A stretch of DNA of 64,000 nucleotides from Hermatobates lingyangjiaoensis (lineage: Eukaryota; Arthropoda; Insecta; Hemiptera; Hermatobatidae). The translations under genes were made by a program, and so were the position numbers. Below are positions 3,790 through 62,690 of this stretch, piece by piece (positions within the stretch are counted from its first letter, which is position 1; each line of letters begins with the position of its first letter). The notes beneath the pieces were generated by a model. It did no database searches. It was not told the DNA's origin and saw only the letters and a program-made list of their open reading frames with translations. The stretch covers positions 90,001-154,000 of the forward strand of contig JAPFBL010000581.1 of assembly GCA_026182355.1 (NCBI GenBank). The letters run 5' to 3'.

Positions 3790-3897
3790 ATATATATATA
3801 TATATATGGATTAATTTACCACAATGAAAACAATTAATCGACAATATCATAAAAAAGGTGAAACAATTCATGATATTAAATTATGAAGAACAGTTCA

Positions 3898-4434
3898 CAA
3901 GAAGGAATTTGTTAGTCATTCCATACAGTCCTTGTTTGAAAGATATGCCTTCATTTATACAAAAAATTGGACGTTTCTGTTGTGTTCAGTAATGATGGTA
4001 ACTTGTTTAACAGACTTGTCAATAATAAGCTAAAAACAAAGGACTGCTGTGTATACAGGATACCATGTACTGACTGTGAAATGTCTTACATTGGACAGAC
4101 GAGCAAAGGTCTTCTTACAAGGATAAAACAACACAAATATTCCATCAGAAGAGAAGACGAAAAGAGTGTCTTGTTCATGCACATAAGAAACAGTAATCAT
4201 GTGATTAACTGGAATGAAGCAAATGAATTAATATATGTGTCTTCAGAAAGAAGGAGAAATATCGTGGAAAGTGCGCTCATAAAGAACTTTTATGAGAAGT
4301 TGATGAACAATAGCCTAGGACTCTACAAATTAGATGAAGTTTTGATTAGCGGGATAATTAAACAGATGAAGACTTCATCATTAAACACATTCAGAGTTGT
4401 CATCAATTCTGGAAATTTCAATCAGCCGAGTTAA
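3898..4434 (+). pseudogene. Penelope-like element GIY-YIG endonuclease, truncated and frameshifted
   Basis: The frame open from 3967 to a TAA at 4432-4434 encodes 155 residues matching the C-terminal endonuclease of PLEs. A cysteine-rich block (C27, C28, C34, C37) is followed by a degenerate GIY (CVY, 28-30), YIG at 41-43 in YIGQTSKG, R52, H56 and the likely metal-binding glutamate E101 in NIVESALIKNF. These are the expected residues of the nuclease fold that nicks target DNA for retrotransposition. Upstream, a different frame from about 3898 (RRNLLVIPYSPCLKDMPSFI) resembles the PLE thumb/linker that normally precedes VVFSNDGNLF, so one frameshift lies near 3961-3975. The frame at 3967 opens with TTG, not ATG, and an in-frame TGA sits at 3937. 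No reverse transcriptase domain is present. It cannot act alone, but the endonuclease motif residues are intact. Confidence 0.85.
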
Positions 4435-4462
4435 CAAGTATTTATTGTTTTTTTAGTTCACT

Positions 4463-4500
4463 TGCTCTCTGATGATGTGTTAACGAAAGGCCTTAGAGCA
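4463..4500 (+). ncRNA. Hammerhead ribozyme, family P, intact core
   Basis: Stem I strand TGCTCT (4463-4468) pairs perfectly with AGAGCA (4495-4500). Between them: core CTGATGA (4469-4475), one extra T, a short GT/AC stem II with loop GTTA (4477-4484), GAAA (4485-4488), mini stem III AG-GC-CT (4488-4493) and cleavage-site T 4494. Every conserved hammerhead position is present; the oddities are a 2-bp stem III and the unpaired base after the core. Predicted self-cleavage is after 4494. Hammerheads of this reduced type are known from PLE terminal repeats. Activity is inferred. Confidence 0.8.
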
Positions 4501-4570
4501 TTGTTTCAAAAATTGTTTTCATTGTGGTAAATTAATCCATCTATTATATCAAGTGTTATTTTGATTATTA

Positions 4571-4572
<2 letters not shown>

Positions 4573-4620
<48 letters not shown>
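4573..4620. repeat. (TA)n microsatellite
   Basis: Pure TA tract between the 3' end of the family P copy and a family E fragment. Confidence 0.95.
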
Positions 4621-4626
<6 letters not shown>

Positions 4627-4800
4627 GTTATCATTAGAAAACAAAAAGAGACTAACACTTACTATTATCGACATTTCTGCTATCACGCCGTCCTCAGGAA
4701 AGATAGGAAAAGGAAAAGGAACACAGGAGCGGATACATGAAAGTGTCAACCGACCAACACAAAGTGATACACAGTGTAGCCACCTTGGCCCCATGGACTA
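4621..4800 (-). repeat. Family E PLE-like 3' end with hammerhead-like motif
   Basis: On the minus strand, CTGAGGA is followed by a CGGC hairpin region, GAAA, TGTC and GATAATAGTAAGTG (about 4661-4702). The core fits CTGANGA and the predicted cleavage base is C, but stem I keeps only two certain pairs. A diverged plus-strand relative lies at about 58935-59100 (shared GTCGGTTGG and ACACTTTCA blocks and the AGTCTCTTTTTGT tail). Confidence 0.55.
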
Positions 4801-6290
4801 GTTTAAGCTGAACTAAATGTCAATAAAACTGAAATTAATTTAAGAAAGGGTAGAAAAGCAAGAAGGAAAAAGGAAAAGATAAAATTGTAAATAAAAAATA
4901 AAGAAGTAAAAAACAATAATTACGCCAATACATCCATTCTAGGTACAAATACGCTGATTATTCCATTGTAAGAATAATACGCAGGTTAGGGTTAATAGAA
5001 CTACGACTAATTTCCAACTGCGTACTTCTTTAGAATGTAGATAATAATATTTTCTTTTAATAACAAGTATTCAAGTTAAAGATTAAAATTCTAATAAGCT
5101 CAACATCAAAGCGGATATTTGAATTATAATTTACATTTTGTTATTTATAAATTGAATGTTAATATTTCTTTATTTTATTTTGAGTCATAACATATTTGAA
5201 TAAATGGAGTAAAAATATAAGATTATACTTGGTTTAAGAAACCGTTGAAAAAAATAATACCAGCACAAACTGTAAGTTGTTAACCAACAAATACATATAT
5301 GAAAATGAAGAAAAACGATAAAAAAAATTATGCTAAGAAATATCAATCTAATGAAATTACAGTACATGAAAGTTTTAATAAATTGAAAAAAATCAGGATA
5401 ATGGAGTAAAAATGAGGAAGTATTATCCATTTACTAATGCATTGCAGGTATCAACACGTATATTAATTAAATCAAAGTACTAATATGCATAATATTCCTC
5501 TGAGGTACTAATATCTGATATTTACTAATACTGAGGTCAATATTGAACTAATACTAATGTTTACTGGTATTTACTAATCTTGGCTACTAGTAACATGTTC
5601 TGATTTTAGTGGAAATAGAAAACACTTTATCTGGGGCTGTAGATGCACTTTTTTTTATGGTAAGGCTGTTTGGTAGGAAGCTTGGGGGTGCTCAGAGTTA
5701 TACATCATTGTCATATGTTCTAAATATATCTTAAACATTTCATATAACATTCATATCAAATACCTTTTACAGGTAAATAATTATTGTATAGCTGTAAAAA
5801 TTTAAAAGTGACGACTTTTTGCCAAATTGAGTATAACATATTATAATTTAAGATCTACTCACCAATCTTAAGATCGCTTCTACTATGGAGAGACTTCAAT
5901 AATCACCACTAGTTACTTACCACACCTGTAACAGACATTTACAGAGTTATTACAAAGTTTTAAAGAAGAGACCATTGGAGGAGTACTAAGTTTTGCTCAA
6001 TGGAAGATAGTTGTAAATAATGAAGTTATTGGTTTATGTATATGGTGCATACAGTTTAAATATTTGAGAGTTTAATTTACTTCTATTGATAACTACTAAA
6101 TTGAATCATCCTGTTTTGGACAATCATATTTGAAAGTTCTATTTATACTTCTTGATTACTACTAAACTTGATGGTCTAGTTTGGTATGTACAGTTTTAGT
6201 ATTTGAAAATCAAATTTGCTTCTACCAAAATTATCATCATGAACAAGTTTTGAACATGGTGATTTAAAAATACTCTAAGGACCTTGATTA
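4801..6290. other. AT-rich intergenic DNA, no gene seen
   Basis: Long low-complexity AT-rich stretch. The open frames in it have no recognisable motif and the composition of noncoding DNA. Confidence 0.55.
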
Positions 6291-6299
6291 ATCTGTTAT

Positions 6300-6740
6300 T
6301 CCAAATATTCCGTTTTCTAATATATACCGTAGGTTTCTTCGCTTTCCTAGCACCTTCGAACTCAAATTCCCAAGTCATACTTGGCACAGATGTTCCTGGG
6401 TGGCCGGCCTCTGATGTGCCTGATCTATCTGGCCCCTTCAAGGCGTCACCTGGTACTCCACATCAGCCGAGATTATGCTACCGCTGAAAGCGCAGCCTCT
6501 CTCCAGGCTAGTGGAAGGTTCGGACCCCTACATTGTTGAGAGACCCAACCCCTGACTTATCATCGATACTTTCTATTTAACCAGAGCTAGACAAGGTTCA
6601 AGTAGTGCGAATGTACCAGTAAAATGGGAAGTTATTTCTGTGTTATTGAGCATGCTTGCGTGTGACAGGTGAGCTTGGAGCCTCGGGATTTGCTACACTC
6701 CGTCAGCTGCCCCTGTGGGGAGGGGGATATTATTATTGCT
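6300..6740. other. GC-richer block, unrecognised, possible mobile-element remnant
   Basis: Base composition rises sharply here (for example GGCCGGCCTCTGATG and CCTCTCTCCAGGCTAG), then returns to AT-rich at about 6740. A 67-codon plus frame (6284-6487) and an 81-codon minus frame (6196-6441) cross it, but neither shows a known domain. GGTTCGGACCCC near 6518 resembles a Pol III B box, yet no A box is evident. A transposable-element fragment such as an LTR or SINE is likeliest, and a host exon is not excluded. Confidence 0.35.
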
Positions 6741-7680: not shown

Positions 7681-7850
7681 CACAATATGAAATGGAGAAA
7701 AAAAAAAGACTAAGATCTTTTAACCGTAAAAAGTCTTCATCAGTAGGGTCTTTAACACTGACAAAGACCGCATCTTACTACTGAAAAATCTTAGTATTTT
7801 TTTTTTCATTTCCTATTGCAGTTTGAGCAATTCATTATATGGAATTTTAA
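7681..7850. repeat. Old family A foldback
   Basis: The left arm (minus-strand family A; CAAACCACAATATGAAATGG, AAGATCTTTTAACCG) and right arm (plus strand; CACTGACAAAGACCGC, AATCTTAGT, CATTTCCTATTG) form an imperfect inverted repeat. Both ribozyme cores are mutated (CTGACAA; GAAA changed), so this is a decayed insertion. No (TA)n remains beside it. Confidence 0.6.
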
Positions 7851-13170: not shown

Positions 13171-13279
13171 GATTATTGAAAATGACACCAAACTTAGCAG
13201 ATACCTTCTTCTTAACAAGCGTCTCAATTTTTTTGAATAACACAGTCGTTATTTCGTCTACACAATAAAGTATATCTCC

Positions 13280-13325
13280 AATAGTCAGCAAGTTTCGAAT
13301 GATTAACATTCATCTTCAGGACGTG
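13280..13325 (-). ncRNA. Hammerhead-like motif, family F left arm
   Basis: On the minus strand: CTGAAGA (complement of 13313-13319), one T, stem II GAAT/ATTC with loop GTTAATC, GAAA (complement of 13293-13296), then CTTGCT and GACT. Core and stem II are intact. Stem I cannot be paired convincingly, so activity is uncertain. Confidence 0.5.
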
Positions 13326-13937
13326 AATAACTTCTTGGCTAATAATAATTTTCTGGTTTATTATATATATAAAATGAAGACAGTGGGGGTTGTGTTTCTT
13401 CAAGTTTAAGATAATCTGGTCGTTAATCCTGTGGGGTGAGTGGCCTAGTAGTCCAAATTACTACCTGTAAGGGTTTTTGGATGCCGTTGTTGTGAATTAA
13501 AGATCTTTAAAATTTGCCTACTATTTTCGACTTAAATATTAAAGAATGGTTACAGTTTTTGAATTAATATATCTTCTAAAATTCTCACTTTATGGTAGTT
13601 TCTTTCTTTTTTTAATTATTTTTTATTTACAAATTTCCATATTTTACTGGTTACAAAAAAAAAATTAAAAAAAGAATGTAACAAACACCATTTTAGAAGC
13701 TATATGAACTAAAAAAACTGAAACCAGACATAAATATTTTATGTCGAAAATAGCAGGAAAATTTTAAAGCACTTTAATTCACATTAAGGGCTGCAGAAAC
13801 CCTTACAGGTAGTTACTAGGACTGTTAGGCCACTCACCCCACAGGATTAACGACCACCTTATCCTAACCTTGAAGAAAAAGCATCCCCACTCTTCACTTT
13901 GCATCTAAAATAAACTAGAAAATTCACCCAAGTATTT

Positions 13938-13990
13938 TTTCAATTCCTGAAGATGAATGTCGATAATTCGAAAGATGTCGACCATAGGAG
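13938..13990 (+). ncRNA. Hammerhead-like motif, family F right arm
   Basis: CTGAAGA (13947-13953), one T, stem II GAAT/ATTC (13955-13958 with 13966-13969) and GAAA (13970-13973). The loop differs from the left arm (GTCGATA versus GTTAATC) while the stem is identical, the pattern expected if the stem is under constraint. Stem I is weak. Confidence 0.5.
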
Positions 13991-14091
13991 ATAAAATTGC
14001 GTAGACAAAATAACGAGAGTATTATTTAACAAAATTGAAAAACTTGTTAAGAAACAGGTATCAACTAAGTTTGGTATCATTTTTAATAATA

Positions 14092-20678: not shown

Positions 20679-21086
20679 TTATTAAAGTATACGGCAGCTT
20701 CCGCATTCATGACCTTTTTGCTGGTTTTTTCTAGTTTTCTAACTAGTTTCCTTTTGTAGGGAGTGATTTCATGAAGGAGTTGTCAACGAGACATCGAAGA
20801 AATAATTTCGTAGGTTACTCAATAATATATTTTTACTTACATTCTTTCGATTTCACTGAAATCATCATCTTGAATATCCGCCCTCTGAATATCTGATGAT
20901 GATTTCAGTGAAATCGAAAGCTTGTAAGTAAAAATATATTATTGAGTAACCTACGAAATTATTTCTTCGATGTCTCTGCGTCAACTCCTTCATGAAATCA
21001 CTCCCTACCAAAGAGAACTAGTTTGAAAACTAGAAAAAAAGAGCAAAAAAGCTCGTGAATTCGGAAGCTGCCGTCCACTTTAATAA
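20679..21086. repeat. Foldback, family G, about 200-bp arms
   Basis: Arms about 20679-20878 and 20888-21086 are near-identical inverted copies (shared GGCAGCTTCCG, ACTAGTTT, GAGTGATTTCATGAAGGAGT, AATTTCGTAGGTTACTCAAT) meeting near 20883. A (TA)n tract (about 20612-20640) precedes and a TA run follows. The right arm has an intact hammerhead core; the left arm's core has lost the first C (AGATGATGA on the minus strand). The head-to-head join sits only a few bases upstream of the core, removing most of the 5' stem I strand. Confidence 0.8.
20887..20930 (+). ncRNA. Hammerhead-like motif, family G, strong stem II
   Basis: CTGATGA (20893-20899), one T, perfect 6-bp stem II GATTTC/GAAATC with loop AGT (20901-20915), GAAA (20916-20919), mini stem A-GC-T and T 20923 as predicted cleavage base. 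The stem I partner is short (about three pairs including a wobble) because the palindrome join cuts it. Confidence 0.6.
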
Positions 21087-23688: not shown

Positions 23689-23692
<4 letters not shown>

Positions 23693-23979
23693 CAATATAG
23701 AAAAAGAAACATAGAGAAATCAAAAGAACACACTTACAGTCTCTAATTTTCGGTTTGAACCGTCATCAGAAGAGATAAGGGAGGGAAACAAGCGCACTGG
23801 TCCAGAGACGGTTGGAGACCGTCTACTAGATGACTAGATTGGAGGGTCTCCAACCGTCTCTGGACCAGTGCGCTTGGTTTCCTTCTCTCATCTCTCCAAA
23901 GACGGTTCAAACCAAAACTTAGAGACTGTAAGTGTGTTCTTTTGATTTCTCTATGTTTCTTTTTCTATATTGAACTATA
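23687..23979. repeat. Family C foldback, about 134-bp arms
   Basis: Arms 23687-23820 and 23845-23979 are near-identical inverted copies around a 24-bp spacer. The left arm has a complete hammerhead on the minus strand. The right arm's plus-strand copy is broken (CCAAAGA for CTGAAGA; CAAAA for CGAAA). One functional-looking and one dead core in the same hairpin show that the arms have evolved separately since the join. Confidence 0.8.
23738..23775 (-). ncRNA. Hammerhead ribozyme, family C, intact core
   Basis: On the minus strand: TCTT, CTGATGA (complement of 23763-23769), C, GG/CC stem with loop TTCAAA, GAAA (complement of 23748-23751), ATT, cleavage-site A, then GAGA. Stem I TCTT/GAGA has four pairs including one G-T wobble. 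A closed by T around a 2-nt loop makes stem III a single pair, smaller than in families P and A. Confidence 0.65.
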
Positions 23980-26826: not shown

Positions 26827-27942
26827 TTATTAGTAATTGTGGTCAAGAAAACAATACCTTATATATATATATTTTTTTTGCAGGCTTCATGAAGTTTTTG
26901 AAGGTTGAAATTTGAGAATGACCTGAATTGCTGAAGATATTCCTTCCTATTTCATCTTGAAAAGTATAAGAACTTATTTTTATACTTTTAACCTTAATAG
27001 CTACAGTATTTAAAATGTAACAGGGTTATTGGGAAAAAGTTTTAACAAGTCTTGTGGTAATAAAAGTATGACGATGTTGCAAGCGATATAATTCTAACTG
27101 TTGCTTGCCTAGGGTGATTTGACCGCTAACTGTAGTCAAAGTTCGTGGATACATGTCGTAGAGGGCGGCTGAAAAGTAAAGGGTGCCCAATTGTTGCTCA
27201 GCTAGATCGCGTGAGTCGACTCTATCAGAGGAGTAAGTGTCTGAGACACGGAGGTGTCTGCGTTTTGGTCCGACCGTACTCAACCTTAATAGTTCAACAT
27301 CAATTTTCCTTCCCATACTTCCACAAACAAAACCTTCTTTCCTATCATTCACAACCTTCCTAAACGTATATCTTCCCATCCATAAACAATTATTTTTGTT
27401 TCCTCTGTTCAGTTAAATTGTTCATTTCAAGACCCGTCAAAGGTAATCCAATTTTATGATACTTCACTAATGGAATAAGCGTTTCCTGTATTTAACTAAT
27501 GAACGACCATAAGAAGAAGAATGGTACAAAGCCTTCATCTGGTGTTATAGTGTGATTAAGATATGTTTAGATCCATAAACAAAGCAGGCTAAAACCTTCA
27601 ATATCTAATCAAATGCCTACTTTATGAGAAACTGGTCTTTTAATTCTTTAAGAAAAACTATTGAACATTACTTACTTTACATATATATTTAATGAATATT
27701 TTATACGAAAAAGTACTTTTGTGTAATTTGAAGTATAGCTTCTTTTTAAAATTTTCAAGTATAAACGATAAATTCAAGGCATGTTCAAAAATGTAAAGCA
27801 CTTCTGGAAAACTAACTCATAATGTCAATACACTTATATAATCATCAGGATACGGTAGTTAAGCAGGTACTGAAATAATCAGATTCCTTGAGAATCAAGG
27901 AACCAGAAAATTTATTTAGAGCTTTTGGACTTTCTGGCAGTA
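26827..27942. other. Intergenic DNA with one mixed-composition patch
   Basis: 27050-27330 is less AT-rich and open on both strands for more than 70 codons (27026-27379 minus, 27145-27363 plus). Neither frame has a domain I recognise; there is no splice or promoter evidence. Could be an old element fragment. Confidence 0.4.
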
Positions 27943-28925
27943 TTATTTAATACGAGTATTGTTATATACGAGTAGTACATCGTATTATTATATACGAGTA
28001 GTACGAGTATTATTATATACGATTAGTACGAGTATTATTATATACGAGTAGTAAGAGTATTATTATATACGAGTAGTACGAGTATTATTATATACGAGTA
28101 GTACGAGTATTATTATATACGATTAGTACGAGTATTATTATATACGAGTAGTAAGAGTATTATTATATACGAGTAGTACGAGTATTATTATATACGAGTA
28201 GTACGAGTATTATTATATACGAGTAGTACGAGTATTATTATATACGAGTAGTACGAGTATTATTATATACGAGTAGTACGAGTATTATTATATACGAGTA
28301 GTACGAGTATTATTATATACGAGTAGTACGAGTATTATTATATACGAGTAGTACGAGTATTATTATATACGAGTAGTACGAGTATTATTATATACGAGTA
28401 GTACGAGTATTATTATATACGATTAGTACGAGTATTATTATATACGAGTAGTACGAGTATTATTATATACGATTAGTACGAGTATTATTATATACGAGTA
28501 GTACGAGTATTATTATATACGATTAGTACGAGTATTATTATATACGAGTAGTACGAGTATTATTATATACGAGTAGTACGAGTATTATTATATACGAGTA
28601 GTACGAGTATTATTATATACGAGTAGTACGAGTATTATTATATACGAGTAGTACGAGTATTATTATATACGAGTAGTACGAGTATTATTATATACGAGTA
28701 GTACGAGTATTATTATATACGAGTAGTACGAGTATTATTATATACGAGTATTACGAGTATTATTATATACGAGTAGTACGAGTATTATTATATACGAGTA
28801 GTACGAGTATTATTATATACAAGTAGTACGAGTATTATTATATACGAGTAGTACGAGTATTATTATATACGAGTAGTACGAGTATAATTATATACGAGTA
28901 GTACGAGTATTATTATATACGATGA
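27943..28925. repeat. 25-bp minisatellite, about 39 units, with higher-order structure
   Basis: Tandem array of a 25-bp unit containing ATTATTATATACGAGTAG. Variant units are regularly spaced. GATTAG variants lie at 28021 and 28121 and GTAAGAG variants at 28051 and 28151, a 100-bp (4-unit) higher-order repeat. GATTAG variants at 28421, 28471 and 28521 show a 50-bp (2-unit) repeat. The first units (27943-27990) and the last are more diverged, as expected at array edges. No direct link to the mobile elements is visible. Confidence 0.95.
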
Positions 28926-30590: not shown

Positions 30591-30600
30591 GGTTAGTAAT

Positions 30601-30833
30601 ATTAGAATCAGTAATAATACAATCCATCATACCTCGTAAAGTCCTAGAAAAGCTCGACCGGTTTTGGGTCCGTCTGGATCCCATCTTCAAGAGAACCTAA
30701 CTGACCCAACAATTCAGTTGATTCACAGTCAGTTAGTGCTCTTGAAGATGGGATCCAGACGGTCCCGAAACCCGTCGAGCTTTTCTGAGACTTTACGAGT
30801 TATGACGGATTGTATTATCACTAATTCTAAAAT
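30601..30833. repeat. Foldback, family I, about 105-bp arms
   Basis: Arms 30601-30705 and 30728-30833 are inverted copies (AATACAATCC, GTAAAGTC, AAGCTCGACCGG, GTCTGGATCCCATCTTCAAG) around a 22-bp spacer. The right arm holds an almost complete hammerhead with one core substitution. The left arm's copy has further changes (AAAA in place of GAAA on the minus strand). Confidence 0.75.
30738..30780 (+). ncRNA. Hammerhead-like motif, family I, one core mutation
   Basis: Stem I GCTC (30738-30741) pairs with GAGC (30777-30780). The core is TTGAAGA (30742-30748), a C-to-T change at the first, normally invariant, core base. Then one T, stem II GGGA/TCCC (30750-30753 with 30763-30766), GAAA (30767-30770), mini stem III AC-CC-GT (30770-30775) and cleavage base C 30776. 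All three stems are intact, so it probably lost activity recently. Confidence 0.6.

Positions 30834-33905: not shown

Positions 33906-33943
<38 letters not shown>
33903..33943. repeat. (TA)n microsatellite
   Basis: TA tract between a family A and a family B insertion. Confidence 0.95.
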
Positions 33944-33948
<5 letters not shown>

Positions 33949-34078
33949 AATTCAAAACGAAGGAAACACACAGAAAGATACAGACATAACTCACATCGAT
34001 ATTTCGACCATCGTCGTCATCAGGAGGTGTGAAGAGCGAAGAGTCCCGGGGGAAGGCAGGGCGGTGACTCATTATTAT
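33943..34078 (-). repeat. Family B PLE-like 3' end, single arm
   Basis: AAATAAATTCAAAACGAAGG, ACACACAGAAAGA, the ribozyme block, then GAGGTGTGAAGAGCGAAGAG and GGCAGGGCGGTGACTCA. The same family as 57640-57870 and 58080-58345 but present as one arm only. TA repeats flank both ends. Confidence 0.75.
33993..34030 (-). ncRNA. Hammerhead ribozyme, family B, intact core
   Basis: On the minus strand: stem I CACCTC / GATGTG (five of six pairs), CTGATGA, C, stem II GAC/GTC with loop GATG, GAAA, TAT, cleavage base C. Identical layout to 57781-57818. Stem III is a single A-T pair, so it is the weakest part. Confidence 0.7.
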
Positions 34079-37258: not shown

Positions 37259-37415
37259 AAAGATTTCACATGAACACGTGAAATAACAATCAATGATCAA
37301 AGCACAATATGAAATGGGAAAACAAGACTACGAGGGTTTTTGACTCTGACGAAGACCACTTGTTACGGTTGAAAGTTCTTGGTCTTGTTTTCCCATTTCT
37401 TATTGTGGTTTGATC
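37259..37415. repeat. Family A asymmetric foldback
   Basis: Left arm: inverted terminal piece AGATTTCACATGAACACGTG to GGGAAAACAAGACTA. Right arm: plus-strand copy from GGGTTTTTGACTC to TTGTGGTTTGATC. The left arm stops before the ribozyme, so only the right arm carries it. TA repeats flank both sides. Confidence 0.7.
37342..37384 (+). ncRNA. Hammerhead ribozyme, family A variant
   Basis: GACT (37342-37345), CTGACGA (37346-37352), stem II ACC.../GGT, GAAA (37371-37374), mini stem AG-TT-CT, T, then GGTC (37381-37384). The first base of the 3' stem I strand is G instead of A, giving a G-T wobble with GACT, so pairing is retained. Confidence 0.65.
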
Positions 37416-37416: not shown

Positions 37417-37448
<32 letters not shown>

Positions 37449-37479
37449 GGAAACTCACCACAAATTAAAGAAGATAGTC

Positions 37480-37515
37480 GCTCTAAGGCCTTTCGCTTTC
37501 ACGTCGTCAGAGAGC
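37480..37515 (-). ncRNA. Hammerhead ribozyme, family P, left arm
   Basis: Exact mirror of the copy at 37535-37570: GCTCT, CTGACGA, C, short stem II with GAAA loop, GAAA, AG-GC-CT, T, AGAGC on the minus strand. Confidence 0.7.
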
Positions 37516-37534
37516 AACACTGTTGCTCAGTGTT

Positions 37535-37570
37535 GCTCTCTGACGACGTGAAAGCGAAAGGCCTTAGAGC
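37535..37570 (+). ncRNA. Hammerhead ribozyme, family P, right arm
   Basis: Stem I GCTCT (37535-37539) with AGAGC (37566-37570); core CTGACGA (37540-37546); extra C; stem II of G-C and T-G pairs with a GAAA loop (37548-37555); GAAA (37556-37559); mini stem III AG-GC-CT (37559-37564); cleavage base T 37565. Compared with 4463-4500 the seventh-core-base variation (C for T) is one tolerated by hammerheads. Stem II is weak. Confidence 0.75.
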
Positions 37571-37665
37571 GACTATCTTCTTTAATTTGTGGTGAGTTTC
37601 CTGAATATTTATATCACGTGTTATTGTGACAATTTTCTAAATATATATATATATATATATATATA

Positions 37666-40347: not shown

Positions 40348-40500
40348 ATTTCTCAATAAATACATAAATAAAAAATCAACGTCAAACCAGTTGAGATTTG
40401 ACTGACGAAGAACGTTTCCTATAGTTGTAAGATTTTAGTCTTTTTTTTATATCTTACAATTGTGTGGACATCGATAAATAAATATATTATACACATGTTT
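40344..40500 (+). repeat. Old family A copy
   Basis: AGATTTCTCAATAAATACAT (inverted end), then TTTGACTGACGAAGAACG, TTGTAAGATTTTAGTC. The core CTGACGA persists but GAAA is GTAA; decayed. A TA tract (40314-40343) precedes it. Confidence 0.55.
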
Positions 40501-41055: not shown

Positions 41056-41179
41056 ATATACATATGCATTTTTAGAGTGATTTCATTTATTTTACTACTT
41101 CTTGTTTTGTGTTCTTGGTGTATATACTCAAATGTGTACATTTTAACTTATGTTCAGATATACATATATATATATATAT

Positions 41180-41470
41180 GGATTAATTTACCACAATGAA
41201 AACAATTTTTAACAATTGTTAAAAGGCAACAATTTGTTGTCCTAGGCTAGGACTCTACAAATTAGATGAAGTTTTGATTAACGGGATAATTAAACAGATG
41301 AAGACTTCATCATTAAACACATTCAGGGTTGCCATCAATTCTGGAAATTTCAATCAGCCAAGTTAACAAGTATTTATTGTTTTTTTAGTTCACTTGCTCT
41401 CCGAAGATGTGTTAACGAAAGGCCTTAGAGCATTGTTTCAAAAATTGTTTTCATTGTGGTAAATTAATCC
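41180..41470 (+). mobile_element. Penelope-like family P, internally deleted copy
   Basis: The same 28-bp inverted termini as 3808-4538 (41180-41207 and 41443-41470), between TA tracts. From about 41250 it is almost identical to 4320-4538, so it keeps the tail of the endonuclease frame and the 3' region but lacks the GIY-YIG part. The ribozyme core reads CCGAAGA instead of CTGATGA (second, normally invariant, core base changed), so it should not cleave. The sequence after 41470 to about 41505 is also shared with 4539-4572, so the family extends to the TA tract. Confidence 0.8.
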
Positions 41471-41529
41471 ATCTATTATATCAAGTGTTATTTTGATTAT
41501 TATTCATATATATATATATATATATATAA

Positions 41530-44537: not shown

Positions 44538-44918
44538 GCGCGTCTTATCCTCAGTTAAACTTGCCCTAGGAGATTTGATCATCTGCTCTTCATTCCTGGA
44601 GGAGGTTGATTTCTGATCGGCTTTTGGAGACTTCCCACTCATCTCGCCGGATTCTCCTTGTTCTCTTGGTTAAAATTTCGTTTTCCCTGTGCCTGTAGCT
44701 CCAACAGGAGCCGAGAAAAACGCGTTTAAAAGTGGGGGCAAAGTACAATCCAGAAATTTTCTGGATTAGGGGATTGGCCCAGAGGACTGGAGATGATGGG
44801 AAACTGTCAGGGGGGGGTAAGAAAATAAAAATGGGTAGGGGCCAGGTATATGAAAAAAAAGGAGAGGGGGGGGGGGAGTAAAATCGAAAAACGCAAAAAA
44901 CGCTGAAAAATTCGATGA

Positions 44919-45146
44919 GTGAAGGTTAAGAACTTCTCACTATTGCTCCAAAAAATAAAAAACTTAGAAGAAGACGCACTAAAAGAGTGCTCACGCGCAA
45001 TGCACTCTCTCTCAACGAAAAATGAGAAAACATTTCACACGGGGGATGTTCTGAATACCACCAACGATCCAGGAGTCGCCGAATCCCGGATCAGTTCCGC
45101 GACAGGTACCATCCAAGGTAGCATGCACAGGTACATCCACAGGTAG
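44919..45146 (+). CDS. Hypothetical ORF in left palindrome arm
   Basis: Seventy-five codons starting MKVKNFSLLLQKIKNLEEDA. Its mirror copy at 45248-45475 (minus) is open over the same length with only a handful of residue changes. The last residues (GSMHRYIHR) are encoded by the central tandem block. I recognise no domain. Because the arms are inverted copies, two open frames are not independent evidence of selection, and the opposite strand carries the leader of the MSGKSPK frame. It may not be translated. Confidence 0.3.
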   Translation: MKVKNFSLLLQKIKNLEEDALKECSRAMHSLSTKNEKTFHTGDVLNTTNDPGVAESRISSATGTIQGSMHRYIHR

Positions 45147-45285
45147 CATCCACAGGTACATCCACAGGTAGCATCCACAGGTAGCATCCACAGGTATGTA
45201 CCTATGGATGTACCTGTGGATGCTACCTGTGGATGTACCTGTGGATGCTACCTGTGGATGTACCTGTGCATGCTACCTTGGATGG
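45117..45285. repeat. Central tandem block with 12- and 13-bp alternating units
   Basis: AGGTACATCCAC and AGGTAGCATCCAC alternate up to about 45194, then the complementary units run outward (GGATGTACCTGTG, GGATGCTACCTGT). The palindrome centre lies inside this block at about 45197, so the array itself is inverted on itself. Confidence 0.9.
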
Positions 45286-45475
45286 TACCTGTCGCGGAAC
45301 AGATCCGGGATTCGGCGACTCCTGGATCGTTGGTGGTATTCAGAACATCCCCCGTGGGAAATGTTTTCTCATTTTTCGTCGAGAGAGAGCGCATTGCGCG
45401 TGAGCACTCTTTTAGTGCGTCTTCATCTAAGTTTTTTATTTTTTGGAGCAATAGTGAGAAGTTCTTAACCTTCAC
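45248..45475 (-). CDS. Hypothetical ORF, mirror copy in right palindrome arm
   Basis: Mirror of 44919-45146, 75 codons, starting MKVKNFSLLLQKIKNLDEDA. Differences include E to D, H to R and H to P substitutions. The function is unknown and the frame may be incidental to the palindrome. Confidence 0.3.
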   Translation of the reverse strand: MKVKNFSLLLQKIKNLDEDALKECSRAMRSLSTKNEKTFPTGDVLNTTNDPGVAESRICSATGTIQGSMHRYIHR

Positions 45476-45743
45476 TCATCGAATTTTTCAGCGTTTTTTG
45501 CGTTTTTTCGATTTTACTCCCCGCCTCCTTTTTTTTCATATACCTGGCCCCTACCCATTTTTATTTTCTTACCCCCCTGACAGTTTCCCATCATCTCGGT
45601 CCTCTGGGCCAATCCCCTAATCCAGAAAATTTCTGGATTGTACTTTGCCCCCACTTTTAAACGCGTTTTTCTCGGCTCCTGTTGGAGCTACAGGCACAGG
45701 GAAAACGAAATTTTAACCAGGAGAACAAGGAGCATCCGGCGAG

Positions 45744-45899
45744 ATGAGTGGGAAGTCTCCAAAAGCCGATCAGAAATCAACCTTGTCCAGGAATGAAGAG
45801 CAGATGATCAAATCTCCTAGGGCAAGTTTAACTGAGGATAAGACGCGCAGCCCGACCAAAGCTGCCAACCCCCGTCCAAGGGGTGCAGACGGAAAGTAT
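45744..45899 (+). pseudogene. N-terminal fragment of a retroelement-like protein
   Basis: The frame starting at the ATG at 45744 reads MSGKSPKADQKSTLSRN, then SPRASLTEDKTRSPTKAANP and RPRGADGK, and then runs into repeat X at about 45900, where it ends after a few codons. It is rich in K, S, P and R, like the basic N-termini of LINE ORF1 or Gag proteins, but no diagnostic motif is present. The left arm carries the same start on the minus strand (from about 44647), cut after about 35 codons at the palindrome edge. Truncated in both arms. Confidence 0.45.
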
Positions 45900-46495: not shown

Positions 46496-46702
46496 TTGGT
46501 AACACTATCTTTCAACCGCATCAAGCGGTCTTCGACATGGTCATATTTCAACTGATTTGTTCAGAGAAGAAATCAGTTAAGATTTGACTCTTAAGTAGAC
46601 CGCTTGTTACGGTTGAAAGATCTTAGTCTTATTCCTGATTTCTTACTGTGGGTTAGACGTTGATTTTATTTCATATGTTTATAGTAAAATCTTGTTATAT
46701 AT
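46496..46702. repeat. Family A foldback, degenerate core
   Basis: Left arm AACACTATCTTTCAACCGC, AAGCGGTCTTCGAC; right arm TTTGACTCTTAAGTAGACC, GTTACGGTTGAAAGATC, TTAGTC. The right arm core is destroyed (CTTAAGTAG) but stem II, GAAA and stem I remain. The spacer includes a secondary inverted piece (ACTGATTT...AAATCAGT). Confidence 0.65.
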
Positions 46703-49689: not shown

Positions 49690-49925
49690 TCAAGATTTCA
49701 CAATAAACACATGAAATAACAATTAATGTTCAAACGGCAATAAGAAATGAAAAAAAAAAGATGAACTAATTGGATGTTCTACATCTTTGGTCAGTTGAGA
49801 TTTGACTCTGACGAAGACCGGTTGTTACGGTTGAAAGATTTTAGTCTCATTTTTTCCCATTTCATATTGTTGTTCGATCATTAATGTTATTTTACATGTT
49901 TATGTGAAATCTTGTTATCGATGTA
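49690..49925. repeat. Family A foldback
   Basis: Left arm AGATTTCACAATAAACACAT to GGCAATAAGAAATG; right arm TTTGACTCTGACGAAGACC to TTTTACATGTTTATGTGAAA. The left arm stops before the ribozyme. No (TA)n remains; ATGTATA-rich sequence lies at each side. Confidence 0.7.
49804..49846 (+). ncRNA. Hammerhead ribozyme, family A, near intact
   Basis: GACT (49804-49807), CTGACGA, stem II ACCG.../CGGT, GAAA, GATTTT, AGTC (49843-49846). One change makes the mini stem III a G-T wobble. Core and stem I are intact. Confidence 0.65.
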
Positions 49926-50988: not shown

Positions 50989-51290
50989 TTTCACAACTTA
51001 TAAAAAAAACCCTTATTGTAAGATATGTATATATACACTAATATATCAAAAGAGACCTGTGTTTTCCTTATTAAGTTGTAAATGCTCTTGTGAAATAAAT
51101 GGCTCTTATTATTGTCATTATTATAAAGTAGTCGTTATAAAACTATACGTTGTATAGTACTGGTCAAAATTCCATATCTGACAGAAATAAATGGCTCTTA
51201 TTATTGTCATTATTATAAAGTAGTCGTTATAAAACTATACGTTGTATAGTACTGGATAAAGTTCCATATCTGAGAGAAATAAATTAGGTT
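50989..51290 (+). repeat. LINE 3' end with 92-bp tandem duplication
   Basis: The 3' untranslated region of the RTE remnant. GAAATAAATGGCTCTTATTA starts at 51092 and again at 51184 (offset 92), continuing to TATAGTACTGG in both copies, and GAAATAAAT starts a third time near 51276. The copies are nearly identical, much younger than the decay of the coding part. Some RTE elements end in tandem 3' units, so this may be inherited from the element. Confidence 0.75.
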
Positions 51291-53408: not shown

Positions 53409-53447
<39 letters not shown>

Positions 53448-53448
53448 A
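53409..53448. repeat. (TA)n microsatellite
   Basis: TA tract on the left side of a family A foldback; another lies at 53699-53727. Confidence 0.95.
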
Positions 53449-53519
53449 AGATTTCACATAAACAAGAAATATATATATATATATCAATGATCAAACCACA
53501 ATAAGAAATGGGAAAACAA

Positions 53520-53562
53520 GACTAAGATCTTTCAACCGTAACAAGCGGTCTTCGTCAGAGTC
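53520..53562 (-). ncRNA. Hammerhead ribozyme, family A, left arm
   Basis: Mirror of 53588-53630: GACT, CTGACGA, stem II ACCG/CGGT, GAAA, AG-AT-CT, T, AGTC on the minus strand, all intact. Confidence 0.75.
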
Positions 53563-53587
53563 AAAAACCCAACTCAGTTGGGTTTTT

Positions 53588-53630
53588 GACTCTGACGAAG
53601 ACCGCTTGTTACTGTTGAAAGATCTTAGTC
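53588..53630 (+). ncRNA. Hammerhead ribozyme, family A, right arm
   Basis: Stem I GACT (53588-53591) with AGTC (53627-53630); core CTGACGA (53592-53598); stem II with ACCG at 53601-53604 and CTGT opposite (one C-T mismatch from a G-to-T change); GAAA (53617-53620); mini stem III AG-AT-CT (53620-53625); cleavage base T 53626. Confidence 0.7.
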
Positions 53631-53694
53631 TTGTTTTCCCATTTCTTATTGTGGTTTGATCATTGATTGTTGTTTCACGTGTTTATGTGAAATC

Positions 53695-53727
<33 letters not shown>

Positions 53728-53732
<5 letters not shown>

Positions 53733-57582: not shown

Positions 57583-57616
57583 CCTGTCCGAGTCCTGATA
57601 AACTTTGGTTTTGTTT
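57583..57616 (+). repeat. Single arm of the 10246-10335 hairpin family
   Basis: CTGTCCGAGTCCTGATAAAC and TTTGGTTTTGT match the right arm at 10305-10335 with two differences. It runs into a TA tract, as there. Confidence 0.65.
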
Positions 57617-57685
57617 ATAACTATATATATATATATAAAATAAATTCAAAATGAAGGAAACACACAGAAAGACACAGACATAACT

Positions 57686-57723
57686 CACATCGATATTTCG
57701 ACCATCGTCGTCATCAGGAGGTG
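57686..57723 (-). ncRNA. Hammerhead ribozyme, family B, left arm
   Basis: Mirror of 57781-57818 with the same core and stems on the minus strand. Confidence 0.7.
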
Positions 57724-57780
57724 TGAAGAGCAGCAACTCTGCCCTGTCTTCCTGCGGGACTCTTCCCTCTTCCCTCTTCA

Positions 57781-57818
57781 CACCTCCTGATGACGACGAT
57801 GGTCGAAATATCGATGTG
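57781..57818 (+). ncRNA. Hammerhead ribozyme, family B, right arm
   Basis: CACCTC (57781-57786) pairs with GATGTG (57813-57818) at five of six positions; core CTGATGA (57787-57793); extra C; stem II GAC/GTC with loop GATG (57795-57804); GAAA (57805-57808); TAT; cleavage base C 57812. Stem III is minimal (one A-T pair). Confidence 0.75.
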
Positions 57819-57900
57819 AGTTATGTCTGTGTCTTTCTGTGTGTTTCCTTCGTTTTGAATTTATTTTATTTAAAAAAGTCTGCCGGACCGTTTCTTTTAA

Positions 57901-58080
57901 TTGTATATATATACTTAAACAAACTGTGAGACATAGAAAGAAACAAAACAACGACACACTAAACAATATTTCGCCCCTTGGTGATCGAAATATTGAAAAG
58001 TGAGTCTTTGTTATGTTTCTTTCTATGTGCCACAATGTATTTTAAGCGAAATCTCTCCTGCCGGGCCGTTTTTCGTTTTA
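57901..58080. repeat. Family B-like foldback, ribozyme core lost
   Basis: Inverted arms around 57975: CTGTGAGACATAGAAAGAAAC, ACACTAAACAATATTTCG on the left; CGAAATATTGAAAAGTGAG, GTTTCTTTCTATGTGCCAC on the right. Closely related to the perfect hairpin at 16944-17077. Ends in the CTGCCGGGCCGTTTTTCG tail. Confidence 0.65.
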
Positions 58081-58350
58081 AATTGAAAACGAAGGAAACA
58101 CACAGAAAGACACAGACATAACTCACATGATATTTCGATCATCGTCGTCATCAGGAGGTGTGAAGAGCGAAGAGTCCTGCAGGAAGGCAGGGCGGTGACG
58201 CAGGGCCTTCCTGCGGGACTCTTCGCTCTTCACACCTCCTGATGACGACGATGATTGAAATATATATGTGAGTTTTGTCTGTGTCTTTCTGTGTGTTTCC
58301 TTCATTTTGAATTTATTTTATTTATAAAAGTCCTCTGAACAGTTTCTTTT
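58081..58350. repeat. Family B foldback, degenerate cores
   Basis: The left arm (minus; about 58084-58199) retains CTGATGA and GAAA but has lost the first base of the 3' stem I strand. The right arm (plus; about 58205-58320) has CTGATGACGACGATGATTG, then AAATATATATGTGAG, with GAAA kept but stem II broken. GAAGAGCGAAGAGTCC and CAGGAAGGC blocks match 34030-34065. Confidence 0.7.
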
Positions 58351-58406
58351 AATTGTATACATATATATATATATATATATTTATTTATTTATTTATTTAC
58401 TCTTCT

Positions 58407-58811
58407 TTATATAATCTAGGAGGTGTCAGAGCTTATTTTTCTTCATTCTGATTCTTCCTACGACATTTTGTCTCATATACATATCTTAGGTGTTGCTGGT
58501 CTGAATACTGGGCGGTGACTGAGTGTCGGCTTGGCGAGTAGCTGGTGGTTGGTCACCTAGTAGCTGCAGTGTGCGTGAAACCCCCGTGTGTTGACGATTA
58601 ATTAATGGGTTAATTAATTAATCGTCAACACACGGGGGTTTCACGCACACTGCAGCTACTAGGTGACCAACCACCAGCTACTCGCCAAGCCGACACTCAG
58701 TCACCGCCCAGTATTCAGACCAGCACACCTAAGATATGTACGAGTATATGAGACAAAAATGTCGTAGGAAGAATCAGAATGAAGAAAAATAAGCTCTGAC
58801 ACCTCCTAGAT

Positions 58812-58818: not shown

Positions 58819-58849
<31 letters not shown>

Positions 58850-58850
<1 letters not shown>

Positions 58851-58940
58851 GTGGGTTTTTGACACTGACGAAGACGGCTTGTTACAGTTGAAAGATCTTA
58901 GTCTTTTTTCCTCAATTCATATTGAAGTTTGATTACTTAT
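58850..58940 (+). repeat. Family A 3' end, single arm
   Basis: GGGTTTTTGACACTGACGAAG, GTTACAGTTGAAAGATC, TTAGTC. The core CTGACGA is intact but the last base of the 5' stem I strand is A (GACA), leaving three pairs. Confidence 0.65.
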
Positions 58941-59100
58941 ATACTTTGTGTCGGTTGGTAGACACTTTCAGGTCTCCACTCCTGTTTTTCCTATTCTTTT
59001 TATTTTTCTTGTCTCCTGAAAGCGGGAAGAAAGCTGAAATGATCGAAACTCGTTAATGTTAGTCTCTTTTTTTGTGGTTTCTAGTTGTATTATTGGTCAA
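58935..59100 (+). repeat. Family E diverged copy
   Basis: GTGTCGGTTGGTAGACACTT, CTCCTGTTTTTCC, CTCCTGAAAGCGGGAAG, TGAAATGATCGAAAC and GTTAGTCTC match the complement of 4621-4760. The core is CTGAAAG, mutated. Confidence 0.55.
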
Positions 59101-59924
59101 TTTATATATATATATTATATATATATAACAATAATTGTTTATGGTATACAACTTCATTTCATCATATCATAAGAAGAATATGTTTAAAATCATATCATCG
59201 AAGGAAAATGAAATGGGTCCCATTTATCAATATCCAGATTAAGGATTGGACGAGATTAATCTGAGATAATATTTAGAAATGTGTAAAATACATAATGCAG
59301 AAGACTAAATCATGTCTAATTAAAGCCGAGGCTTGTTTCTTGTTTAGCCGCAGGCAATTTATATTCCAATGACTCTCCATGTCGGGCGTTTATTCCGTAA
59401 CTCCTCCAGGCTATCACATCTCTACCCTTTAATACCAGTGGATGCACTTCCTTTCCCTTGATTGTAATATAAGTCCGTATATACAATTTGCTAGAAGCCT
59501 TTTTGCATTATTTGTTATAATGTTTATTTATCATCGAGTTTGGCATTATGACTGAAAATTTCACTAATCCTTAAACGCTGTTGCCATTTCCGTTATATTT
59601 TACGCTACGTTATTAATAAATTACTATGATAACAAATATAATTATTGAAAACAATTGTATAATGAACATATTATAGTGCGGGATAGTGAAGTACGCCGAT
59701 TAATGTAGCCTTCAGGATGGGAATAAAACTCCCACTGTCGATGTTTCAGTTCTATTGAGCATTTTTTTTCATTATGTCTACAAACAAAAGAATAAAGTAA
59801 AACAAATTAGCAAGTAATCATATAATAAATATAAAGATAATTTCATTGTATTTAAAGATATAAGCATTAGTAAATTATAAAGAAAGGTTTTCTCGAGACC
59901 AATTTATATATTTGTATATATTTT
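59101..59924. other. AT-rich intergenic DNA, no gene seen
   Basis: Nothing recognised. Confidence 0.45.
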
Positions 59925-61824
59925 CTATTAAAACTAATGCCTAATTCTAGTTTTACACCTTTTCTGATTAATTTTTCCAATCTTCTCATACATGACTTCC
60001 ATAGGATTGGAACTAAATTCATATGTTCACTAAAATTTTTATTTTTTGTAATCCAACATATAAATAAAATAAAAATAAAAATGAAAAATCTGGAGTGGCC
60101 TACACTCTACTTTACTATAAGTAACTCAATGTCAAATTTCTTGAGTATATAAAACATAACGTATCATTTAAGCATAACATAAATATCTAAATGGGATATA
60201 ATTATTAGCATTGCATTCGTGAGTTAGTACAGACAGTGATTGAAGGACATATCAATTTATAAGCTTATTTTTGTACATCACAAATAATTTATTATTTGCA
60301 AATAATTTCATTAGTATAACTACAGCAGTAATAATATTTTTGAAAAACCAATTTGAACATTTCTTGAAACGAAATATTATCCTACAAGAGAACATGGCTA
60401 TTGTACAAATAGCCAGTAGATTTCTTACATCGTTTACTTGACATCCTCTTACATTGAATATTAATGTAAAATTTTCACATTTGAAACAGTAAAATACCCT
60501 TTTTTTCTCTGAAAAACATCTTAAACAGCGAAGAAAATTTTGTTTTAAGGTGATTTGTTAATTAAAGATGTACGATAATTACAGTTATTAATCTCTAAAC
60601 GAAAGATTTATATTTTGAATTATTTTTTACATTTTTGGTTTTTAACAGAATTATTATACTGGGAATTTTATGGCTTCTTAGTATTTAATAAGATCATTTT
60701 CCTTCCCCTTTGTCAAATAACATATATACGAATTTTTTTAATGAGTGTTATCATTTACCTCCACAATATTATTCCTCTTACATCTCTTATAAGTCAATAA
60801 TATATTTTCATTTTTCCATTAGAAACATCAATTTTATCTCAGTGGATTCGCTCAAAAAATTTCTATGTCAATGTAAACAATGTAAAAAAAATACAAAAAA
60901 TTCGACAAGTATAGCAGGTGATCTCTTAGTCTAGGATAAACAAAGAGTTTTTATATCGTTATTACTCTTTCCCGTAATTGAAACTTCATGAATTTTTTTT
61001 TGTGAATTGCTAATTTTCTGTTCCATGTTTGGTCAAATTTTCATTATTTTTTAACGAGCCGTTTAGCTTCAAAAAATCATTTTCTGAAAACACAAATCGT
61101 ACTGTAACGCCCCTTTAGCAAAAGTAATTTCAGAAAAAAATATCTCAACTCATTCGCCATATAATGTTCTATTTGTAGGCATAGTTTCATTTTTGTCCGT
61201 CAAACAGTATGGCTTGTATCACTCTCAAAAGGTTTGAAATTGAATTATGAGTCAAAATTTGTACATTTTATTGAAAAAAAAATATTTCCCGTTGTTTTAA
61301 AATTCTGAATATATTTTTCGTTTGTTCCATTTGTAACCTCAAAGATAGTGTCAAAATTTCAAAACTCTAGGGTTATCAGTTTAGGAGAAATAAATGTTTT
61401 AAAAAAAAACGGTTTTTGGCAAAAAAAGTGACTTTCCCATCATGCATAATTCTTCGCAAACAATAGGGATCTTCCTCCCTATGAGGCCCATTTTTGTGTA
61501 AAATATCAATTTGATCCATCAAAGATTCTGGACCGTAGCGTGGTAACAAGCAATGCTAACACACGCACCCACCCACCCACCCACACACACACAGACATCA
61601 TCGTAAAATCCTCATAAAACGACTTCTGGGACCTCAAAACATGTAATTCCATTAAAATCTCGAGATCGAATTTTTTCACGATCACTATACTTTACTTATA
61701 GTAAAGTAAAAAAAATTTGGTATACTTATGAACTTATTCCAAACATATGGAAGCCATGTATGAGAAGATTTGAAAAATTAATCAGAAAAGGTGTAAAATT
61801 AGAATTAATCATTAGGTTTAATAG
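59925..61824. repeat. Inverted repeat with repeat X in its loop
   Basis: Arms about 59925-60026 and 61728-61824 are inverted copies: AATGCCTAATTCTAGTTTTA and its diverged complement, ACACCTTTTCTGATTAATTT, TCTTCTCATACATG. Almost all of the loop is copy C of repeat X. Either X inserted between pre-existing arms or the arms are part of a larger composite. Confidence 0.7.
60087..61714 (+). mobile_element. Repeat X, copy C, full-length-like
   Basis: Collinear with copy A (47731-49390), with mostly single-base differences and small gaps, including the absence of the AAATAATAATAATAATAAG stretch near copy A's 48320. TACTTTACTATAAGTAA (60108-60124) is exactly complementary to TTACTTATAGTAAAGTA (61692-61708). 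No transposase, reverse transcriptase or other long frame is seen. The internal ACCCACCC and ACACAC run differs in length between copies, like a microsatellite. Confidence 0.75.
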
Positions 61825-61862
61825 AACTTGAATACCTGAAGGCCTGCTCTCCAAATATACGA

Positions 61863-61863
61863 A

Positions 61864-61890
<27 letters not shown>
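61863..61890. repeat. (TA)n microsatellite
   Basis: TA run at the left edge of a family A foldback. Confidence 0.9.
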
Positions 61891-61895
<5 letters not shown>

Positions 61896-61958
61896 CTTTC
61901 ACATAAACACGTGAAATAACAATCAATGATCAAACCACAATAAGAAATGGGAAAACAA

Positions 61959-62001
61959 GACTAAGATCTTTCAACCGTAACAAGCGGTCTTCGTCAGAGT
62001 C
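61959..62001 (-). ncRNA. Hammerhead ribozyme, family A, left arm
   Basis: Mirror of 62061-62103, all elements intact on the minus strand. Confidence 0.75.
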
Positions 62002-62060
62002 AAAAACCCAACTGAATCTGAAACTGAAGTTTTCTGCATCTAGTGTTCAGTTGGGTTTTT

Positions 62061-62103
62061 GACTCTGACGAAGACCGCTTGTTACGGTTGAAAGATCTTA
62101 GTC
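62061..62103 (+). ncRNA. Hammerhead ribozyme, family A, best copy
   Basis: Stem I GACT (62061-62064) with AGTC (62100-62103); core CTGACGA (62065-62071); stem II ACCG/CGGT closed further by an A-T pair with a bulge, loop CTTGTTA; GAAA (62090-62093); mini stem III AG-AT-CT; cleavage base T 62099. All hammerhead positions are satisfied. Confidence 0.8.
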
Positions 62104-62149
62104 TTGTTTTCCCATTTCTTATTGTGGTTTGATCATTGATATACTCGTA

Positions 62150-62270
62150 TATATATATACACTTTAACACAGAAAGACACTACAGAACTCACTTCGATAT
62201 TTCGACACCGTCGTCATCGGGAAGAAGTAAGAAGTACTCGCGTTGAGAAGCAAACTGCTACTCAATATAT
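62150..62270 (-). repeat. Family B-like fragment
   Basis: CTCACTTCGATATTTCGACA, CCGTCGTCATCGGGAAG. On the minus strand the core reads CCGATGA (second base changed) with GAC.../GTC stem II and GAAATATC. Inactive core; TA tracts on both sides. Confidence 0.6.
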
Positions 62271-62285
62271 ATATATATATATATA

Positions 62286-62520
62286 TTCGTTACAATGTTG
62301 ACCAATAGGCGTGAAGTTTACAGGTCCATGCGTGCGGTCCCAGTTACCCGCTGCTCAGCGAAGACTCAGTCCTTCTGCCAATATTTATATATATCGTTCT
62401 CTGCCTGCAGAGTGACTCGTTTCGATCTTCCTGATGACGAGGACATCAAAATATAATAGTGGGTTTCTGTTTCATTTCTGAGTGTTCATTGTCTTAATAT
62501 ATATATTAATATATTAACAC
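62286..62520 (+). repeat. Fragment of a hammerhead-like family, degenerate
   Basis: TTTCGATCTTC, CTGATGACGAGGACATC, AAAATATAATAGTGGG near 62420-62462 keeps CTGATGA but GAAA is CAAAA. The upstream part (ACAGGTCCATGCGTGCGG, GTTACCCGCTGCTCAGCG) is GC-richer and not found elsewhere in the window. Confidence 0.5.
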
Positions 62521-62544
62521 AAATATAATATATATATATATATA

Positions 62545-62690
62545 TATATATTAATAACTGAGTCAGTTGGATTTTTGACTCTGACGAAGACCGTTGTTAC
62601 GGTTGAAAGATCTTAGTCTTGTTTTCCCATGTCATATTGTGGTATGATCATTGATTTTTATTTAACGTGTTTATGTGAAATCATAATATA
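62545..62690 (+). repeat. Family A 3' end, single arm
   Basis: From GTTGGATTTTTGACTCTGAC to GTTTATGTGAAATC, between TA tracts, with the ribozyme at 62577-62618. Confidence 0.75.
62577..62618 (+). ncRNA. Hammerhead ribozyme, family A, one-base loop deletion
   Basis: GACT (62577-62580), CTGACGA (62581-62587), stem II ACCG/CGGT with loop TTGTTA (one base shorter than other copies), GAAA (62605-62608), AG-AT-CT, T, AGTC (62615-62618). The only change is in the loop. Confidence 0.75.

Follow-up and report, generated by a model that had tools for sequence, protein, structure and literature searches.

What has filled a 64,000-nucleotide stretch of the genome of the hemipteran Hermatobates lingyangjiaoensis (GenBank assembly GCA_026182355.1, contig JAPFBL010000581.1, positions 90,001 to 154,000 of the forward strand; hereafter the window) with copies of the hammerhead ribozyme core, and how might such copies act? 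We report that they are very probably dispersed 3' ends (pseudo-long terminal repeats, pLTRs) of several families of Penelope-like elements (PLEs), inserted at TA-rich sites mainly as head-to-head pairs, the better-preserved arms carrying a minimal type I hammerhead that would act through a stem III made by two copies. The feature is already described in kind; here it occurs in several diverged families. Core, register, palindromic stem III, an endonuclease gene adjoining one family (F1a), head-to-head layout, short and long ends and TA flanks are all read directly from the DNA. Most copies in the window look like dead insertions, and most arms have no recognisable coding sequence. Positions are those of the window, and the family names F1-F12 are our own grouping, copies inside one family being non-independent.

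Hammerheads were searched for on both strands using a strict descriptor (CTGANGA without deviation, a stem II no shorter than 2 bp, GAAA, A-x-U, H and an unbroken run of four or more stem I pairs), with 60 dinucleotide-preserving shuffles of the window as the null. Eleven sites were found (first base of CTGANGA at 4469, 37346, 37540, 49808, 53592, 62065 and 62581 on the plus strand and at 61997, 53558, 37510 and 23769 on the minus strand) compared with a shuffle mean of 0.12 and a maximum of 1, an approximately 90-fold excess. A looser pattern, CTGANGA with GAAA 6-31 nt on, gave 33 sites (shuffle mean 3.4, maximum 9). The hammerhead layout put forward in the initial annotation is thus real and dense in the window, in DNA that is low in GC. 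Every strict site (11/11) has one unpaired nucleotide between CTGANGA and the best-pairing stem II. A single stem I mismatch keeps three good F3 copies (57787, 57717 and 34023) out of the strict set. The cut sites that had been proposed, 4494, 37565, 57812 and 62099, coincide with H17 counted from the cores and are in register. Four of the five examples cited for the layout are as described, i.e. 4463-4500 (stem I TGCTCT/AGAGCA), 62061-62103 (GACT/AGTC), 57781-57818 (CACCTC/GATGTG, 5/6 pairs with one C.U mismatch) and minus 23740-23773 (TCTT/GAGA, one G.U); the fifth, 30738-30780, has the GCTC/GAGC pairing but its core, TTGAAGA instead of CTGANGA, is without the C and not intact. Similarly, the figure of about ten families holds for the layout by our grouping, while an intact core together with a good stem I was found only in F1, F2 and F4, plus F3 with its mismatch.

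Stems I and II are present in these sites, and stem III only as a candidate intermolecular palindrome: from A15.1 to U16.1 it is perfectly palindromic in nine of the 11 strict sites (AGGCCT, AGATCT or AATT) and in none of the shuffles, the two exceptions being AGTTCT (37346) and AGATTT (49808). Among 20 copies picked by eye, 18 have a palindromic option for stem III (exceptions 49808 and 4697; 37346 is outside the 20). Stem III reads ATAT in F3, F5 and F6 and AGCT in F8; these are short, and each alone is therefore weak evidence. The palindrome is too short to close within one molecule yet self-complementary, and it can therefore pair with a second copy, pointing to hammerheads assembled from two RNA copies. 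When folds were restricted to the hammerhead, the dimer was favoured over two monomers for F1a (-19.7 vs -9.4 kcal/mol), F1b (-25.7 vs -15.4), F2a (-15.2 vs -12.6) and F2e (-20.0 vs -17.4); with best folds for the monomers, it remained the more stable only for F1a (-11.6) and F1b (-23.2) of the six tested. A scan with the Rfam hammerhead models, proposed earlier as a check, missed every copy in the window: there were 0 matches at gathering and no hammerhead among the 34 rows with E up to 1, and the minimal stem III is a likely cause.

Minimal dimeric PLE hammerheads were reportedly described by Cervera & De la Pena in 2014 and by Lunse, Weinberg & Breaker in 2017. Further literature is cited by PMC number. 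In many metazoan genomes, minimal type I hammerheads number in the thousands; some of them lie in PLE pLTRs, and they may cut as dimers (PMC7761336). Dimer cutting requires tandem copies and a stem III loop that is palindromic (PMC6466107). The copies in the window resemble these in being type I, with a nearly absent, palindromic stem III, and in lying in PLE terminal repeats (PMC7761336, PMC6466107). As far as the review descriptions set them apart, they differ in the spare nucleotide before stem II (11/11) and in having head-to-head, not tandem, neighbours; a viroid hammerhead with an extra core nucleotide is on record, judging by an article title.

To place the arms, seven templates from the window were used (E up to 1e-3, best family retained), which gave 55 arms or arm pieces. 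Same-family arms at most 150 nt apart form 20 neighbour pairs, of which 18 are head-to-head, two tail-to-tail and none direct. In 11 of the 18 head-to-head pairs one end is 26-40 nt longer, which resembles the published PLE tail. Moreover, the F2 arms (29 matches to a template that stops at position 123) end at template positions 83-96 in 13 cases, at 119-123 in 12 and at an earlier position in four; no arm ends at 97-118. A (TA)5+ tract is present no more than 12 nt from the tail end in 34/55 arms compared with 3.9% of positions. The inserts are mostly arms of roughly 90-140 nt without an open reading frame (ORF), and the window has no recognisable complete element. In one F2 pair (37310-37345) the left arm appears by eye to stop at TAGTC, a nucleotide away from the hammerhead cut site, as though cleavage of its template RNA had ended it; this is a single case, and BLAST extends the match three bases beyond TAGTC with one mismatch.

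Coding sequence adjoins F1a only. The ORF at 3940-4434 on the plus strand has a GIY-YIG domain (PF01541, E 3e-4, 21.5 bits, 1.1 under the Pfam cutoff of 22.6), and the hammerhead at 4463-4500 starts 28 nt 3' of its stop. Two metagenomic relatives were found (the short-contig proteins P0001 and P0002); identity to P0001 is 44-45%, and YIGQTSK and RIKQH are invariant across all three. No relative was confirmed in viral or prokaryote contigs, and the exact F2 pattern was absent from the viral and prokaryote contigs searched. An AlphaFold model from the three sequences reached a mean predicted local distance difference test score (pLDDT) of 41.9, and a profile search of the PDB gave two rows (E 0.54 and 0.72) that were judged to be chance. 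A second F1a copy (41282-41528) is 98% identical to the first over 247 nt, with CCGAAGA instead of CTGANGA. Both ORF-bearing copies have the same inverted piece of their own 3' tail at the left end, with arm ends at 114/138, 24 nt apart. As read from the sequence, this layout matches published PLE anatomy. The PLE reading is supported by the GIY-YIG ORF adjoining F1a, the core, the register, the palindromic stem III, the inverted-repeat layout and the tail.

In the endonuclease-bearing Penelope elements of Adineta vaga there are inverted pLTRs, a 31-bp tail on one inverted pLTR and palindromic head-to-head junctions (PMC3846280), and the window shares with them the inverted pLTRs, the tail on one end, the junction palindromes and the head-to-head arrangement; the difference is that the inserts here are mostly short ORF-less arms. 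The self-priming model from the same source may be an alternative origin of the palindromes (PMC3846280). The protein of Poseidon PAc from Anolis acts on both strands, each of which it cuts and extends, favours AT-rich targets and begins reverse transcription at an internal position of the RNA (PMC11167929). Poseidon PAc is likewise a GIY-YIG PLE with a hammerhead and an AT-rich target preference; its ORF begins at hammerhead stem II (PMC11167929), whereas in F1a the ORF precedes the hammerhead, the order to be expected of a 3' pLTR.

With respect to mechanism, we infer that the dimer cleaves and that both DNA ends initiate reverse transcription in the RNA tail. Two sense copies, whether on a single RNA as tandem PLE units or on two separate RNAs, would pair via stem III into a double hammerhead that cuts both, and this would separate tandem units or define RNA ends. 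At a TA-rich break, the two sides would each prime reverse transcription of the pLTR-bearing PLE RNA within its tail, one of them approximately 30 nt further in, such that two short cDNAs would meet head-to-head. An additional role, that the stem III palindrome also tethers two PLE RNAs and lets a dimeric enzyme prime one RNA from each strand of the break, seems to us unlikely; if true, the RNA tether would jointly explain dimeric PLE hammerheads, head-to-head insertions and the inward start of one arm. The in vivo activity and role of PLE hammerheads have been called a mystery (PMC7761336), and the window is a compact test set for the link between RNA dimerisation, two-ended priming and hammerhead cleavage.

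Covarying stem I pairs had been taken as strong evidence for an RNA structure. Between families this was assessed with eight representatives (two from related F1 copies), with the cut site set by the stem III palindrome: 3.5 of five stem I pairs form with the cognate strand compared with 2.5 with swapped strands, and the observed total is equalled or exceeded in 288 of 40,320 permutations. F1, F2, F3 and F4 account for the signal; F5 and F6 pair poorly, and stem I in F5, F6 and F8 is weak, with 1-3 of the first four pairs. For the within-family alignment, 21 of the 29 F2 matches span the hammerhead and were found by a fuzzy pattern, some arms being widened by hand (the other eight are partial); 17 of the 21 (15 distinct) were used, with 7708-7750, 40400-40440, 46501-46542 and 62577-62618 excluded for indels.

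Several results weigh against the reading of the copies as PLE ends with a dimeric hammerhead or against self-cleavage of the native copies. In F2, the largest family, none of nine pairs is altered on both sides among the 15 distinct copies and no measure exceeds the shuffles, so that the covariation claim stands as a modest excess between families and fails within F2. Within-family covariation was accordingly rejected as structural proof; with no compensatory change, the F2 copies look like neutrally, independently decaying insertions. The dimer hammerhead is less stable than the monomers for F3a (-5.6 vs -7.8 kcal/mol) and F4a (-0.8 vs -3.4) and weaker than best-fold monomers for F2a (-15.2 vs -19.0) and F2e (-20.0 vs -23.8), and in 6/6 tested the hammerhead fold is higher in energy than the cofold without constraints. 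Four whole-palindrome transcripts (179-241 nt) fold at -155 to -178 kcal/mol with the core almost wholly within a long helix; such predicted hairpins bury the ribozyme, and cis cleavage by native inverted copies is therefore doubtful. A full palindrome transcript thus probably hides its ribozymes, and the proposal that cassette transcripts self-cleave is weakened by these folds, by a monomer stem III that is too short and by neighbours that are head-to-head instead of tandem. No direct tandem neighbours within 150 nt occur in the window, the copies are truncated and no complete unit was recognised. No short/long difference is seen in 7/18 head-to-head pairs (F4 101/101; F2 92/51, 96/92, 48/121, 121/121 and 122/123; F12 138/141), some of which are limited by template length or decay. 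F2-F12 have no linked ORF in the window. A reverse transcriptase was not recognised: tblastn with P0001 and P0002 was strong only on the endonuclease region (rest E at least 0.27), with queries that may extend only a short way into a reverse transcriptase. Finally, in the Anolis element, the one PLE assayed in vitro, insertion did not depend on hammerhead cleavage, and the cut site had no RNA-seq ends (PMC11167929).

Inverted repeats of this kind might instead be small DNA transposons (foldback elements or miniature inverted-repeat transposable elements, MITEs), the hammerhead likeness being incidental or derived from a captured PLE end. Arms of 87-155 nt with 1-43 nt between them do resemble foldback elements, and no coding sequence was noticed in the palindromes outside the F1a copies; however, the unequal ends of 11/18 head-to-head pairs, as in PLEs, the F1a arm 3' of the GIY-YIG ORF, the variable inner break points of the arms and the excess of descriptor matches make this very improbable. 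Equally small is the chance that the arms are animal retrozymes, i.e. non-coding tandem hammerhead units of 150-450 bp that spread as small circular RNAs via PLE enzymes. Like the arms, retrozymes are repeated in animal genomes, non-coding and equipped with type I hammerheads (PMC7229834); for scale, the genome of the coral Acropora millepora has >6000 type I motifs in 16 families (PMC7229834). Here non-coding low-GC units share the genome with a PLE-type endonuclease, and retrozymes co-occur with PLEs (PMC7229834, PMC7761336). Published metazoan retrozymes are nevertheless tandem with canonical hammerheads (PMC7229834), whereas the window has 18 head-to-head and no direct neighbours within 150 nt, no head-to-tail tandem units with a canonical hammerhead, a minimal stem III, and a PLE-like tail and inverted layout that are not in the descriptions compared (PMC7229834). 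That chance placed CTGANGA...GAAA in a few AT-rich families and copying multiplied it is more improbable still in our estimate: copies inside a family are non-independent, F2 is without covariation and stem I is weak in F5, F6 and F8, but pairing and palindromes persist in F1, F2, F3 and F4 despite their different stem I and III sequences, cognate stem I strands outperform swapped ones, and no palindromic match arises in shuffles.

The splice-donor consensus, GTRAGT, recurs beside the hammerhead cores. It is present within 35 nt 3' of 11 of the 33 CTGANGA+GAAA sites (plus 57787, 58239 and 20893; minus 58154, 57717, 42946, 34023, 23769, 4697, 2408 and 2080) compared with a shuffle mean of 0.1, a maximum of 1 and a base rate in the window of approximately 0.017 per stretch. 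The 11 sites belong to six families by our grouping (F3-F8), in which GTRAGT follows the predicted cut site at a distance of 0-8 nt; because these families are partly related, the number of independent events is below 11. GTRAGT is missing from F1 and F2. U1 binding and stem I pairing at GTRAGT would compete. An invariant GT column in a 14-row alignment of hand-picked rows mixes GTRAGT registers, and no claim is made from it.

Table 1. Coordinates of PLE-derived copies and hammerheads in the window (cut sites are predicted; "." in the strand column as in the feature list)
Feature	Position	Strand	Details	Pfam
5'-truncated PLE copy 1	3796..4620	+	Inverted tail (3796-3835), GIY-YIG ORF, hammerhead F1a, tail, (AT)n
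C-terminal GIY-YIG endonuclease, PLE type	3940..4434	+	ORF truncated on 5' side	PF01541
Hammerhead F1a	4463..4500	+	Stem III AGGCCT; cut after 4494
PLE copy 2	41168..41528	+	Inverted tail, ORF end, F1a hammerhead with CCGAAGA, tail, (AT)n
F1b palindrome	37436..37665	.	Two outward-facing hammerheads (minus 37477-37518, plus 37532-37573; cut after 37565); left end short, right long; TA tracts both sides
F2 palindrome	61864..62159	.	Hammerheads minus 61959-62001, plus 62061-62103 (cut after 62099); left end long, right short; TA tracts
F2 palindrome	53447..53728	.	Hammerheads minus 53520-53562, plus 53588-53630; both ends long form
F2 single arm	62565..62682	+	Hammerhead 62577-62618
F2 head-to-head pair	49692..49913	.	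Both ends long; hammerhead plus 49804-49846, stem III AGATTT, non-palindromic
F2 head-to-head pair	37259..37415	.	Hammerhead plus 37342-37384, stem III AGTTCT, non-palindromic; left arm ends early, inside hammerhead
F3 palindrome	57632..57903	.	Hammerheads minus 57686-57723, plus 57781-57818 (cut after 57812); stem III ATAT, single stem I mismatch
F3 palindrome	58079..58355	.	Poor stem I; minus core 58154, plus core 58239
F3 single arm	33938..34036	-	Hammerhead core 34023
F4 palindrome	23690..23975	.	Hammerhead minus 23740-23773, stem III AATT, stem I TCTT/GAGA; second arm with altered core
F5 head-to-head pair	1997..2305	.	Minus core 2080, plus 2185 = TTGATGA; stem III ATAT, weak stem I, GTAAGT downstream
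F10 inverted repeat	30599..30833	.	Hammerhead-like layout 30738-30780, core TTGAAGA, not intact

Other inverted repeats with a CTGAWGAT-stem-GAAA layout, perhaps older families, are present at 20715-21049, 13180-14082 and 30599-30833 (TTGAAGA in the third). A perfect 113-nt inverted repeat with a 6-nt centre at 58494-58725 has TA tracts further out on both sides and no CTGANGA core listed inside. MicroRNA precursors were considered and rejected: 33 of the 34 Rfam rows with E up to 1 are microRNA models on long hairpins and one is a small nucleolar RNA, all below gathering scores. A second ORF (27026-27412) gave seven candidate relatives, none with E up to 1e-3. Furthermore, a nested palindrome at 44538-45848 has 250-nt arms (98%) enclosing 326-nt arms (94%) with 12-25 bp tandem repeats, a 25-bp minisatellite spans 27951-28922 (38.8 copies, 97% matches) and a 92-bp tandem duplication (96% matches) lies at 51092-51284.

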